This document shows positions 50,089 to 59,058 of a DNA stretch of 64,000 bases, piece by piece. The DNA lies in NCBI GenBank assembly GCA_019429225.1, contig JAHYJK010000001.1, positions 1 to 64,000 on the forward strand. Reading direction: 5' to 3'. Made by a program: the position numbers and the translations under genes. Numbering within the stretch: position 1 is the stretch's first letter; every line of letters starts with the position of its first letter. Source of the stretch: Anaerolineaceae bacterium (lineage in GTDB: Bacteria > Chloroflexota > Anaerolineae > Anaerolineales > Anaerolineaceae). Under the pieces are notes generated by a model, which was not told where the DNA came from, searched no databases, and saw only the letters and a list, made by a program, of their open reading frames with translations.

Positions 50089-50424
50089 ATGGAAATTTCT
50101 ATTGCGCAATATAAACGCTGTGATGTTGTAAAGGTTGAAGGCCGTATTGACAGCGCAAGTGCTCCCCAATTACATGAAGAATTCAATAAATTATTGGAAG
50201 ACAATCACTTTCATATCGCATTTAATATGACAGATGTTAGTTTTATTTCCAGTGCTGGTCTTCGCGTATTGATTTCAACACAAAAGAATTGTAAAAGATT
50301 TAATCGTGGTGAATTAGTGCTCTCAAATGTTCCTGAAAATATCAAAGCAGCATTGGACCTGGCTGGATTTACAGCGTTGTTTAAGATTTTTGACAGTGAA
50401 GTAGCTGCCGTAGGAAATTTTTAA
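50089..50424 (+). CDS. STAS-domain anti-sigma factor antagonist (RsbV/SpoIIAA-like)
   Basis: VEGRIDSASAPQLHEEFNKLLED; MTDVSFISSAGLRVLISTQK (conserved phosphorylatable Ser in SSAGL). Confidence 0.94.
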   Translation: MEISIAQYKRCDVVKVEGRIDSASAPQLHEEFNKLLEDNHFHIAFNMTDVSFISSAGLRVLISTQKNCKRFNRGELVLSNVPENIKAALDLAGFTALFKIFDSEVAAVGNF

Positions 50425-50440
50425 TAAATATTTCATTACC

Positions 50441-50851
50441 ATGAAAACATTGACTTTTCCTGGTAGTTATTCCAGTCTGGTGAAGATTGGTGAATTTGTA
50501 ACCCAAGCAGCAAAATCTATTGGATTTGATGGGTTTGAGCTATATAAAATAGAAACCGCTGTTGATGAAGCATGTTCTAATATTATTGAACATGCATACG
50601 GGCAGGAAGATATTGGGGATATTGTAATATCTGTTGTCACGGATCTCGACAAAATTACGATTACATTAACTGATTTTGGAGAACCATTCGATCCCAAATA
50701 TGTTAAGCAACCTAATCTAGATGCAGATCTTCAAGATCGCGAGGACCATGGATTGGGCATTTACATGATGAAACAGTGGATGGATGTTGTGGTCTTTGAT
50801 ACTCTTAAAGATAAAAATGTCCTGACTTTGGTAAAGCATTTAAAGGATTGA
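50441..50851 (+). CDS. Serine-protein kinase/anti-sigma factor (RsbW-like, HATPase_c_2)
   Basis: IETAVDEACSNIIEHAYGQ; LTDFGEPFDPKYV; REDHGLGIYMMKQWMDVV. Confidence 0.93.
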   Translation: MKTLTFPGSYSSLVKIGEFVTQAAKSIGFDGFELYKIETAVDEACSNIIEHAYGQEDIGDIVISVVTDLDKITITLTDFGEPFDPKYVKQPNLDADLQDREDHGLGIYMMKQWMDVVVFDTLKDKNVLTLVKHLKD

Positions 50852-53800
50852 CTTTGTCCTCATCAAGCGAATTGCAAGCTATTCCAGAATGGAAACAATA
50901 TCTTCGATTTGGTGAACGTCTACTGGATCAACCATCTGTAGATAAACAGTGTGCATTTATTCAGGAAACAATAAAAGATTTATTGGGCGCAGAAGCTACT
51001 GTCTGGCTATCAGAGCCTTATTTCCCATTACCTGGCGATCAGAAAAAACCAATTCTTCCAGATGCACCTGTCTCTGAATTGGTAAGAAAAACTTTTACTC
51101 AACAATTAATTAATTTTGATCAGGGAATTAATATACCCTTTATTGGAAACAATAATTCTTCAAAACCTACTCACATTGCAATCCCATTAATCAGCCAGGA
51201 TAACATGTTAGGAATTCTCGAAGTCAAACGAGAAAATAGTCATTCATTTGATCAACTTGAAATAAATTTTCTGGAGGGTTTTTCTACTCACGCAGCAGTC
51301 TCTATGCAGATCATACGACAGGTTACACTGAAAAATTGGCGCATGGAGCAACTATCTCTTGTACGAAAAGTTTCAGAACAAATAGCCAATGTACATGATC
51401 TCAAATCTCTGTGTGAAAAAATTACAAGTTTGATACAAAAAACATTTGGTTATTATTTTGTAGCAATTTTTCTCTTAAATGGGAAAACAAGATCGTTAGA
51501 ATTAAAAGCTTCAACCAGTGCTTTAGAACCTGATTTGGCTTTACCACCTTCAATTATGAGTATTGGTGAAGGCATAATAGGTTATGTAGCCCGTAATGGA
51601 AAGGAACTCATAGCACCTGATGTGACAATTGAACCTTTGTATAAACCCTATGCAAATTTACCAAACACAAAAAGTGAAGCTACTTTTCCATTAAAAATAG
51701 ACAAGAAAACGCTTGGCGTTCTTGATATTCAAAGTAATCAATTGGATGCATTCAGTGAAAATGATGTAATTGTGTTAAGTGCTCTGGCAAATTCTATAGC
51801 CATCGCTGTTCAGGATGCAGAGTTATATGGCTCCCTATCCCAACGTGCAGAGCAAATCTCTATTATTTTTGAAGTAAGTCAGGCGATCAATTCCTTCCTG
51901 GATTTAGACGAATTACTGGAAAAAATCATCCAAATTATCATTAAACGGTTTGGGTTTAAGTACGTCCATATCTTCACAGTCCATGCAGGTAGAAGAAAAA
52001 TATTTTATCAAGCTGGATCATTACCAGAAAGTAAAGATTTAGTTGAAAAAGGATTTTCTTTTGATCTGGATGAAGATGGGATTATCTCCTGGGTAGCACA
52101 AAATGGAATTATTGCTATTTCCAATGACATCAGTCAAGATGAAAGATTTGGAAAACAAACTGTTCCAACTCATGACTACTATTCAGAATTAGTCGTGCCA
52201 TTAATCTATGGTGGAGAGATTCTTGGTGTTCTGGTTATTCAAAGTGAAATAAAAAATGCCATTGATGAGCATGATTTATTCATATTTGAGGCAATTGCTT
52301 CAACAATTTCATCAGCGCTCCGAAATGCTTTCCTTTTCCGCTCAGAACAATGGCGACATCAGGTTGCAGAATCATTCAGATCCGTTATTAGTATGATTTC
52401 TGCGAATACTGCACTGGACACTTTGTTGTGTAATATTCTTGAAAAGTTAAATCAGAATTTGCCATGTGATGCCTCCGCCGTCTGGCTTCTTGATAATCGA
52501 TATGATCATCTTGATGAATTAAACCCAAAAACACTCTCACTTGCCGCTACCTGGAATATTTCGAAAGAAAAATTAATAACTGCTTTGTCAAAAGAACCTG
52601 GAACCTGGGAATTAATGGAAATTGCATTAAAAGATACCGAACCAACCATCCGATCCGAAGAACATCCATATGGTCCCTTAGGTATCGCCCTCGATTTTCC
52701 TTCTGATTATTCTTCCATTGCTGCACCTTTACGAATTGGCGACCAGATTCTGGGTCTATTAACATTAGCGCATAATACGTCCAGAAGATATGGCGATGAA
52801 GCCAAAATCATAAGTATAACTTTCGCAAATTATGCTGCTGTAGCCATAAATAACGCCAGATTGTATACCGATGCTCAGGAACAAGCCTGGATGTCGACAG
52901 TGATGTTGCAGGTATCTCAAACCTGTCAAAATAGTGAGACAACCGAAGATTTGCTGGAATCTATGGTTCGTCTAACACCTTTACTGGTTGGGGTCAAAAA
53001 GTGTGCTTTTTATTTATGGAACCCTTATGAGAATTATTTCTTTCTCAAATCTGAGTATGGTTTTAGCTCACCTCCTAACCCGGTATGGAACAAAGATGTG
53101 CCGGCAGCTTTTCAAGTACTGAATTCATATAACCCGATATATATTCAAGATTTAACAGAGGAATTGCACTTCGAGAATAATGATGAATCTTTACAAAACA
53201 GTACGATCATGTTGCTTCCATTACGTGCTCGCGGGGACCTATTAGGTTCATTCCTCGTTTTTCATGAAAATAAAAATCCTACATTGGAGAATAACCTATC
53301 CAATGACACACTTTCAATCCTTCAAGGAATTGTCCAACAGACGGCTGTTTCGCTTGATAATATGCGCTTGATTGAAGCCAGGCAAGAGGAAGCATATATC
53401 ACCGCAGTTCTGCTACAGGTTGCCCAGGCTGTTGTTACCCAACCGAATCTATCAGATACATTTGACACGATCGTTAATCTGCTACCCATTCTGATTGGTG
53501 TGAATGCCTGCATCATCTATATGCCGGATGACGACGATGATCAAAGTTTCAAAGCAGTTGGTGTCTATTCAGATAACGATGAGCACACTTCCATTTTTAC
53601 CTCTCAAGAATTCTGTGAAAAAAATCCCCTGCTTAATTTTGTCTCAAAATTCAACCAGATTGCCTATACATTCATCACAAATGAAGAATTCGAAACGGAA
53701 TGCATTAAGAATTTAAAACCATTACCTTACATTCAAGAAATGAAAATTGATGTCCCTGACCACATGTTAATTGCCTTTCCGATCAATCTCAAGGGGGAAT

Positions 53801-54681
53801 TATTAGGGATTTTATTAACAAAAGAAGATAATCTATCAGCCCAATATTTTGAGAAAAGGGTTGAACTATTAAATGGGGTATCCCAGGAAATTTCATTAGC
53901 AATTCAAAATTATTTCCTACAAAAAGATATCGTAAAAAGAGAAAAACTCGAGCAGGAAATACAACTGGCACGACAAATTCAAAAAACCTTCCTGCCTGAT
54001 TCTTTGCCTGTTCTTCCTGGATGGCAAATTCAAACACGATGGGAAACTGCTTTACAGGTTGGCGGAGATTTTTACGATATTATTTTCCTTCCAAACCATC
54101 GCGTTGGTTTGGTAATCGCCGATGTAGCCGATAAAGGTTTGGCTGCATCCTTATACATGACAGTTTCAAGAACTCTCATCCGCGCCTTTGGTCAGACGAT
54201 TGCTGATCCGGGTGGAGTACTCAACGCCGTGAATAATTTACTGGTAGGTGATACCCCCAGTGGTATGTTTGTGACAGCAGTATTTGCAATCCTGGATTTA
54301 AAAACAGGAAAATTGATCTTTGCTAATGCTGGCCATAACCGGCCAATTGTAATTCGATCTCACAAATCATTAACCGAAGAATTACCACAAGGCGACATGG
54401 CACTCGGTGTCATGGAAGATGTGCAATATAGGAACATGGAATTTTCAATTGAACCTGGAGATTTAATTTTATTCTATACGGATGGACTCACAGAAACTTT
54501 TTCGATGGATGATGAGCAGTATGGAGTAATGCGGTCAATTGAATTCTTAAAACAAAACCATCATCTCAACATTAATGAAATACTGGATAAACTTGACCTT
54601 GAATTGCATGATTTTCGGGAAGGTCAACCACCCAGTGACGATTTAACGATGATCGGACTAAAAAGAGAAGAGATGCCTTAA
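50848..54681 (+). CDS. Multi-GAF-domain PP2C/SpoIIE-type serine phosphatase (RsbU-like)
   Basis: 1277 aa; several GAF-like repeats; C-terminal ARQIQKTFLPDSLP, VGGDFYDIIFL, ADVADKGLAASLYM, FANAGHNRPIVI, FYTDGLTE, SDDLTMIGLKR. Confidence 0.95.
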   Translation: MTLSSSSELQAIPEWKQYLRFGERLLDQPSVDKQCAFIQETIKDLLGAEATVWLSEPYFPLPGDQKKPILPDAPVSELVRKTFTQQLINFDQGINIPFIGNNNSSKPTHIAIPLISQDNMLGILEVKRENSHSFDQLEINFLEGFSTHAAVSMQIIRQVTLKNWRMEQLSLVRKVSEQIANVHDLKSLCEKITSLIQKTFGYYFVAIFLLNGKTRSLELKASTSALEPDLALPPSIMSIGEGIIGYVARNGKELIAPDVTIEPLYKPYANLPNTKSEATFPLKIDKKTLGVLDIQSNQLDAFSENDVIVLSALANSIAIAVQDAELYGSLSQRAEQISIIFEVSQAINSFLDLDELLEKIIQIIIKRFGFKYVHIFTVHAGRRKIFYQAGSLPESKDLVEKGFSFDLDEDGIISWVAQNGIIAISNDISQDERFGKQTVPTHDYYSELVVPLIYGGEILGVLVIQSEIKNAIDEHDLFIFEAIASTISSALRNAFLFRSEQWRHQVAESFRSVISMISANTALDTLLCNILEKLNQNLPCDASAVWLLDNRYDHLDELNPKTLSLAATWNISKEKLITALSKEPGTWELMEIALKDTEPTIRSEEHPYGPLGIALDFPSDYSSIAAPLRIGDQILGLLTLAHNTSRRYGDEAKIISITFANYAAVAINNARLYTDAQEQAWMSTVMLQVSQTCQNSETTEDLLESMVRLTPLLVGVKKCAFYLWNPYENYFFLKSEYGFSSPPNPVWNKDVPAAFQVLNSYNPIYIQDLTEELHFENNDESLQNSTIMLLPLRARGDLLGSFLVFHENKNPTLENNLSNDTLSILQGIVQQTAVSLDNMRLIEARQEEAYITAVLLQVAQAVVTQPNLSDTFDTIVNLLPILIGVNACIIYMPDDDDDQSFKAVGVYSDNDEHTSIFTSQEFCEKNPLLNFVSKFNQIAYTFITNEEFETECIKNLKPLPYIQEMKIDVPDHMLIAFPINLKGELLGILLTKEDNLSAQYFEKRVELLNGVSQEISLAIQNYFLQKDIVKREKLEQEIQLARQIQKTFLPDSLPVLPGWQIQTRWETALQVGGDFYDIIFLPNHRVGLVIADVADKGLAASLYMTVSRTLIRAFGQTIADPGGVLNAVNNLLVGDTPSGMFVTAVFAILDLKTGKLIFANAGHNRPIVIRSHKSLTEELPQGDMALGVMEDVQYRNMEFSIEPGDLILFYTDGLTETFSMDDEQYGVMRSIEFLKQNHHLNINEILDKLDLELHDFREGQPPSDDLTMIGLKREEMP

Positions 54682-55061: not shown

Positions 55062-55167
55062 CTTAACTCATTATGCCTCATTTATAATTTTATCAAAGAT
55101 ACATATTCTATGCCAAGTTAAGCAATTATTTAGAAATTAATATCAATGAGTACTTAAACAAAAAAAG

Positions 55168-55251
<84 letters not shown>

Positions 55252-56571: not shown

Positions 56572-56600
56572 TTGACAAAACCAACAAAAAAGTGTAAATT
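56572..56600 (+). promoter_or_regulatory. Sigma70-type promoter upstream of the integrase-like gene
   Basis: TTGACA - 17 bp - TAAATT, 25 bp before ATG at 56625. Confidence 0.55.
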
Positions 56601-56624
56601 CATAATATCTATACGAAATTTGAG

Positions 56625-57533
56625 GTGATTATGAAAACACAATCTGATTTTGAATCACATATCCATTCATCTACCCCCCTTAACCCCGCTATTCAAGCCT
56701 GGGAAATTTTTCTGCAAGACCAGGATAAATCCCCTTTTACCGTAAAAGCTTTTATCAATGATTTGCAATTGTTAGCCAGCTTTATTCCTCCAGATAAAGC
56801 TATCGGATCAATAACAACCAATGATTTGAATCTTTTCCTTAAATGGCTGGAAAATGGTCGTGGAGTCCCCTGTAGCCCTAAAAGTCTGTCGCGAAGAATC
56901 ACATCTATTAAAGCTTTTTTCCGGTGGTTGCATAACAATGGCAGAATTTCCATCAATCCGGCAGAAAGAGTTGTTCAAAAATCCGTCATCAGTCCATTGC
57001 CAGAGGTATTAACACCGGCAGAAACTGAATTATTATTGGAAATTGCCAATCGTTTTCGCAATTCGACCAAACCTGATACCCGATATTTCACTTTACTCAA
57101 ATTATTATTTGAAACTGGCATAAAAAAAGGTGAATGTCTGATGCTTGGGTTAAATCATATTGATTTAAGTTCACCAAATGGACCATTCATCTTCGTTCGC
57201 TACAATAATCCAAACTATCGCTATAAAGAAAGAAAAATACCTGTCTCCCCAGAATGGGTAGCAGCTTATCAGGAATATTTATCACAATTTAATCCCAAAG
57301 ATCAGGTCTTTCCGTGGTCGCCCCGTCGTTTAGAATACATATTGGAAGATTTGAGTAATGAAGCAGGTTTAGAAAAACACCTATCGTTTGACATGTGTCG
57401 TTGGACCTGCGCTGTTAATGATTACAGCTCAGAGATGGAGAAGGACGCAATCCGCCAGAAGCTAGGGATATCTAAGATTCAGTGGAGAGAGATCGGGCAG
57501 AAATTAGAGCGGTTGTCCCAAAAGTATTCTTAA
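56625..57533 (+). CDS. Tyrosine recombinase (XerC/D)-fold protein, apparently catalytically degenerate
   Basis: N-terminal SAM-like core-binding domain (AIQAWEIFLQDQDKSPFTVKAFINDLQLL...SPKSLSRRITSIKAFFRWL...INPAERV) and C-terminal domain (LLFETGIKKGECLMLGLNHIDL...KERKIPVSPE); standard catalytic residues mostly not conserved. Confidence 0.8.
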   Translation: MIMKTQSDFESHIHSSTPLNPAIQAWEIFLQDQDKSPFTVKAFINDLQLLASFIPPDKAIGSITTNDLNLFLKWLENGRGVPCSPKSLSRRITSIKAFFRWLHNNGRISINPAERVVQKSVISPLPEVLTPAETELLLEIANRFRNSTKPDTRYFTLLKLLFETGIKKGECLMLGLNHIDLSSPNGPFIFVRYNNPNYRYKERKIPVSPEWVAAYQEYLSQFNPKDQVFPWSPRRLEYILEDLSNEAGLEKHLSFDMCRWTCAVNDYSSEMEKDAIRQKLGISKIQWREIGQKLERLSQKYS

Positions 57534-58954: not shown

Positions 58955-59058
58955 CTTCTTATTGTATCTGAAACATTGACAGAATTTTTCTTTAATTTTT
59001 TATTTTAAGCTATATTTATATAAGATTTCCTAATAAATTAAAAAATGAGGCATAAATT

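Follow-up and report, generated by a model that had tools for sequence, protein, structure and literature searches.

The 64,000-nucleotide stretch of Anaerolineaceae DNA analyzed here (the window) contains a gene of the Xer family of tyrosine recombinases which, judged from alignments and trees, is an ancient non-catalytic paralogue, since it is found as a single copy across its order, is under purifying selection, has fixed degenerate motifs, and forms a clade of its own with 100/100 branch support. Its product is probably (we would put the probability at about 0.6) a non-cleaving, sequence-specific DNA-binding protein that recognizes a motif in its own leader and represses itself; lost cutting chemistry, strong selection and a private leader signal together point to such a self-controlling protein. 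The gene occupies a real open reading frame at 56625-57533 (forward strand). The sequence-only reading had started it at the GTG at 56625, but the ATG at 56631 is the better start, because GAGGTGAT just upstream then acts as the ribosome-binding site. The features of the gene are as follows:

56622-56629, forward strand: Shine-Dalgarno sequence GAGGTGAT for the ATG at 56631 (from the sequence)
56631-57533, forward strand: coding sequence of the non-catalytic Xer-like protein (300 amino acids plus stop, ATG start)
56679-56984, forward strand: core-binding (SAM-like) domain, approximately residues 17-118 (Pfam, column counts)
56985-57530, forward strand: degenerate catalytic domain, residues 119-300 (K165/K166, K199 and R257 invariant; nucleophile Tyr absent)
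57114-57134, forward strand: box I, T162-G-I-K165-K166-G-E168, with Arg-I replaced by Lys (alignment, column counts)
57225-57236, forward strand: beta-hairpin Lys motif K199-E-R-K202, kept (alignment, column counts)
57384-57407, forward strand: box II, S252-F-D-M-C-R257-W-T259, both His lost and Arg kept (invariant in 81/81)
57462-57500, forward strand: remains of the LGHxxIxxTxxY motif, L278-G-I-S-K-I-Q-W-R-E-I-G289-Q290, without its His and Tyr (alignment, column counts)

By fold the protein belongs to the tyrosine recombinase/phage integrase superfamily, as both Pfam domains score above their cut-offs (Phage_integrase, 39.3 bits against 27.1; Phage_int_SAM_1, 35.0 bits against 22.3); the second of these matches bears out the earlier claim that the core-binding domain is retained. 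By sequence, the solved structures closest to it are those of XerA (5hxy) and XerD (1a0p). A structural comparison, proposed as a check in the sequence-only reading, gave the same picture: the AlphaFold2 model (pLDDT 90.4, pTM 0.63) matched solved tyrosine recombinases in Foldseek, with XerA as the best match (E 1.1e-11), and lambda integrase, XerH, Tn1549 Int (6en2/6emz) and Cre also found. The TM-scores were about 0.41-0.68 among the matches listed, modest values for which a flexible inter-domain angle is probably responsible.

To read off the lost residues, we aligned the protein with active Xer recombinases of sister Chloroflexota lineages, and we counted columns over 81 orthologues. The losses proposed by eye from the sequence all hold in this alignment: Arg-I of box I is a lysine (K165), HxxRH of box II has become D254-x-x-R257-W258 with both histidines gone and the arginine kept, the histidine of LGH is lost (L278-G279-I280), and the nucleophile position is a glycine (G289); the hairpin lysine proposed as retained is K199. 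In all orthologues, only the Lys and Arg-II are left of the R-K-H-R-H/W-Y set of an active tyrosine recombinase. The degenerate motifs are themselves fixed: "SFDMCRWT" and "KK" are identical in 81/81 sequences, and K165, K166, K199-E-R, S252-FDMCRWT-259, G279, S281, and R286-E287 are invariant. Position 280 is I, V or L, and position 289 is variable (mainly S, G, F or H). In the core-binding domain, the DNA-facing residues K84, R88, R89, and K94 are invariant and R98 nearly so. We also considered the Tyr of SQKYS as a shifted nucleophile, and rejected it, because its column is not conserved in the 81 orthologues; none of their columns near the C-terminus holds a conserved Tyr, so this escape is unsupported.

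A scan of a genome collection returned 150 relatives, of which 80 were kept, all from Chloroflexota. An orthologue is present in 112 of the 121 sampled genomes of the order (89 of the 91 high-quality ones), with one copy in each. One orthologue (G263:C61:6617-7543) is found as two adjacent pieces, from either a frame break or an assembly error. For the eleven closest pairs, dN/dS is between 0.04 and 0.11 and mostly about 0.05 in both domains; values above 0.25 in some less close pairs, probably caused by synonymous saturation or compositional bias, were not used. Orthologues that share the losses and are under purifying selection were thus found, as the sequence-only reading had suggested looking for, and its proposal of a non-catalytic derivative instead of a decayed gene is upheld by this selection, by the 81/81 motifs, by the presence in 112/121 genomes and by the single clade. 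Synteny with tilS and lytR is conserved within the order, and we found no recurrent operon partner outside it. In two distant genomes (L146 and L147), the gene and an scpA-like gene beside trpA/trpB are transcribed toward each other.

The family extends well beyond the order. In a profile search of 251 genomes of the phylum, scores were 408-554 bits within the order and 213-375 bits in the other orders of its class, followed by a second group at 165-207 bits and a third at 88-117, while ordinary Xer proteins stayed below about 75; the scores form a continuum down to the third group. In the first groups box I has KK, and neither LGH nor the Tyr is present; in the third, box I has KR, SR or TR and box II has PQxLRD or PQxLRH. 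Three members of the dead clade from other classes (L145, L148, and L149) have PQTLRHTF or PQLLRDTF at box II, and the two of them with the second His may be an intermediate stage of the loss. As read from these alignments, the catalytic loss is phylum-deep, which goes beyond what the sequence-only reading had expected. In a maximum-likelihood tree, 46 dead sequences were separated from 33 recombinases with a branch support of 100/100; the recombinases include XerD-like proteins from genomes that also carry the dead gene, and the dead clade still stands apart, without the grouping with XerD-like proteins that would mark XerC/XerD orthologues. We rejected a long-branch artefact, since the split is retained with the core-binding domain alone (support 0.962) and with the catalytic motifs removed (0.994); with the catalytic domain alone the support is 1.0. 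A mobile-element origin of the clade was likewise rejected: no relative was found in viral contigs scanned with two degenerate peptide patterns, and plasmid and phage matches are distant (24-30% identity among the matches listed). We found no paper on the dead Xer family in the literature. Separately, one XerD-like protein (L156, in G080:C6) has LGN in place of LGH, possibly a partial degeneration; its genome also has the dead paralogue.

Canonical XerC/XerD, which the sequence-only reading had advised looking for elsewhere, were found in none of 22 genomes of the order, where all matches to the XerD model score at most 178 bits; in most other orders and classes tested the XerD-model matches reach about 220-354 bits (exceptions, in other families, are G184, G198, G226, and G076). 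The chromosome dimer resolution of the order therefore probably relies on another recombinase. A different family of active-looking recombinases (about 330-380 aa) is found in 95 of the 121 genomes of the order, so the dead gene is the more widespread of the two. The host's own copy (G000:C85:3672-4667, corresponding to L084:1036-2031) has a complete-looking catalytic set, and this family is a candidate for the chromosome dimer resolvase. A search for dif sites with an E. coli-type consensus was unproductive: 12/151 genomes contained a match, and the three that we inspected fall inside coding sequence.

Upstream of the gene we identified two further features:

56572-56600, forward strand: promoter TTGACA-17-TAAATT (from the sequence; a similar match in 77/81 loci)
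56609-56618, forward strand: putative operator CTATACGAAA, consensus CTAYRCGMAA (the sole exact copy in the window)

The promoter had been pointed out from the sequence, and a similar pattern (TTGAC[ATC]-16/18-TANNNT) is found in the leaders of 77/81 loci. The 7-base core of the operator (CTATACG, CTATGCG or CTACACG) is found within 250 bp in 80/81 leaders, a count biased by the search expression, which imposed the fixed letters of the core; the 8-mer, 10-mer and position counts are therefore the unbiased measures. The exact 8-mer CTATACGA is found in 49/80 leaders, compared, among control leaders with many loci, with 16/62 for the best 8-mer in tilS leaders and 19/35 in those of the response regulator (a control gene that shares its divergent region with tilS). 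Of the exact 10-mer CTATACGMAA we counted 53 copies in the leaders and none outside them in 904 kb of flanking DNA. The motif is strongly oriented (116 forward copies vs 2 reverse copies), and 33 loci have at least two copies; 13 bp is the spacing in 23 of 35 cases. Start points fall mostly from 2 bp upstream to 18 bp downstream of the -10 element's end, with 2 bp upstream and 8-18 bp downstream favored, and direct repeats 13 bp apart often overlap the -10 and the early transcript. This conserved directional promoter motif is new here. It should be noted that one set of loci served both to discover and to count the motif, checked against control leaders and whole genomes, that related leaders do not give independent counts, and that many of the genomes are metagenome assemblies.

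In eight whole genomes the 10-mer occurs 76 times in total, compared with 95 for the reversed control, and in one 3.2 Mb genome the single 10-mer is at the dead Xer promoter. Among 101 genomes, double sites recur at the dead Xer gene; the other double sites that we inspected were mostly in coding sequence, in tandem repeats or without a downstream gene. The gene thus has a conserved site private to its own promoter, as expected for an autoregulated protein. Three loci in other orders of the class (L119, L121, and L123) keep the motif; leaders of the relatives in tiers 3 and 4 gave no recognizable match, so our claim of autoregulation is not family-wide. The reverse complement of the operator, TTGCGTATAG, resembles the XerC arm of the E. 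coli dif site, which we take as a lead only; we rejected the operator as one arm of a dif-like inverted repeat, such an arrangement being found in 1/61 genomes, below the reversed control. We also rejected CTATACGAAA as a site downstream of the active recombinase: it is there in two genomes and is not conserved in the rest. Another 8-mer, GCTAGACT or AGTCTAGC, is conserved in the intergenic region that tilS shares with the divergently transcribed response regulator gene, at 58955-59058 in the window and at orthologous loci (19/35 and 15-16/62 leaders).

The proposed mechanism is that an ancient Xer-family paralogue, devoid of strand-cleavage chemistry, was kept as a non-cleaving DNA-binding protein. 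A site of about 13 bp would be gripped by the core-binding domain together with the phosphate-binding pocket, which is retained (the Lys in place of Arg-I, the hairpin Lys, and Arg-II); the protein would bind the directional copies of CTATACGMAA that cover its own -10 or closely follow it, and binding would repress transcription of its own gene and hold its level constant. DNA binding and repression are inferred, as is the motif being the site of the protein, for which we rely on the private linkage between motif and gene; a motif specific to its own leader also lends indirect support to the regulatory role raised earlier from the sequence. Head-to-tail repeats cannot form an inverted recombinase synapse, and inverted half-sites are absent in 60/61 genomes. 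A counterpoint is that direct repeats differ from the usual inverted Xer half-sites. Another is that a protein with its own promoter as the sole recognizable site would need a further function, and we found none. More broadly, it is an open bet, at slightly less than even odds, that this branch of Xer proteins in several classes of one phylum has left recombination permanently and comprises core, autoregulated, sequence-specific DNA binders that read direct repeats instead of inverted recombinase half-sites and act as chromosome-organizing factors or regulators.

The protein shares with XerC, XerD and XerA the two-domain fold, the core-binding domain, the hairpin Lys and Arg-II, but lacks Arg-I, the His pair of box II, the LGH His and the nucleophile Tyr. 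It is also set apart from XerC and XerD by its own clade and by its scores of 86.0 and 85.9 bits with the NCBIfam XerC and XerD models, far below the equivalog cut-offs of 335.15 and 329.6. Streptococcal 'XerD-like' proteins (a HAMAP family) are Xer paralogues annotated as having no recombinase function. They resemble the window protein in this respect but belong to another phylum, and it has no match to a 'XerD-like' type family in NCBIfam. The R225K mutant of Tn1549 Int is inactive, yet forms a nearly unaltered DNA complex with a near-identical active-site layout (PMC5871717; 6emz, 6en2). It has Lys at Arg-I, as the window protein does, but there the change was engineered into an active enzyme, and the His and Tyr residues missing here are still present. 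In Bacillus subtilis, XerD unloads SMC, according to the passages of PMC12322038 and PMC8357415 that cite Karaboja 2021. This is a role at a chromosome site beyond recombination. The XerD of B. subtilis is itself an active recombinase, whereas the window protein is permanently without the cleavage residues.

This SMC-unloading role is the model for an alternative in which the dead Xer protein is a non-catalytic chromosome landmark protein near the terminus, with autoregulation merely setting its level. The terminus-specific activity reported for XerD in those passages favors it, as do the single-copy conservation across the order, which suits a housekeeping chromosome role, and the convergent scpA-like gene in two tier-4 loci. 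A landmark would call for repeated or clustered sites, but there are none: the genome totals of the 10-mer are at or below background, a terminus site was not found and dif-like inverted arrangements are nearly absent (1/61); the scpA adjacency, in only two distant loci, makes no operon. We consider this alternative unlikely. A little less likely still is that the protein pairs with or inhibits an active recombinase without cleaving DNA itself, in a hetero-synapse or as a dominant negative. Xer proteins usually work as tetramers, and active recombinases do co-occur, including the family in 95/121 genomes, but the dead gene is the commoner one and persists both with XerD-like proteins and without the active family of the order; its motif, moreover, lacks an inverted, synapsable arrangement. 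There is a small but real chance that the motif is read by some other regulator or acts within the mRNA leader, and that the dead Xer protein has an unrelated role. Direct repeats are common among other DNA-binding families, and the motif is in or beside the likely transcribed leader at many loci; another regulator would be expected to have targets in further promoters, but the motif is absent from the 904 kb and unenriched genome-wide.

The two remaining alternatives concern the chemistry. That the protein is still an enzyme, with its nucleophile at another position or its active site remodelled, is very improbable. Its remodelled pocket (SFDMCRWT, KK) is conserved like an active site, and within the order Y191, Y216 and Y236 are likewise conserved, but Y236 sits in the helix preceding box II in the AlphaFold2 model, there is no conserved Tyr in the C-terminal nucleophile region of Xer proteins, the box II and LGH histidines are gone, and the Arg-to-Lys change at Arg-I by itself inactivates Tn1549 Int (PMC5871717). 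A decaying pseudogene or mobile-element remnant, which the loss of catalytic residues might suggest, is already refuted by the purifying selection, the near-universal single copy, the tilS/lytR synteny in the order, the lack of relatives in the viral contigs scanned, and the 24-30% identity of the plasmid and phage matches among those listed.

Non-catalytic roles of Xer proteins have so far been proposed mainly for enzymes that are still active. Here evolution parts the two roles, with cleavage impossible or nearly so and the DNA-holding residues invariant; almost every member of a large order has the dead Xer gene among its core genes, and relatives of it exist in other classes. The gene thus offers a clean system for Xer function without recombination, and the predicted DNA site leads to a simple test. 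Elsewhere in the neighborhood, anti-anti-sigma-like, kinase-like and GAF/SpoIIE phosphatase genes lie in a row at 50089-54681 of the window, probably a partner-switching module, and a tRNA-Leu (CAG) gene is located at 55167-55251 (minus strand).
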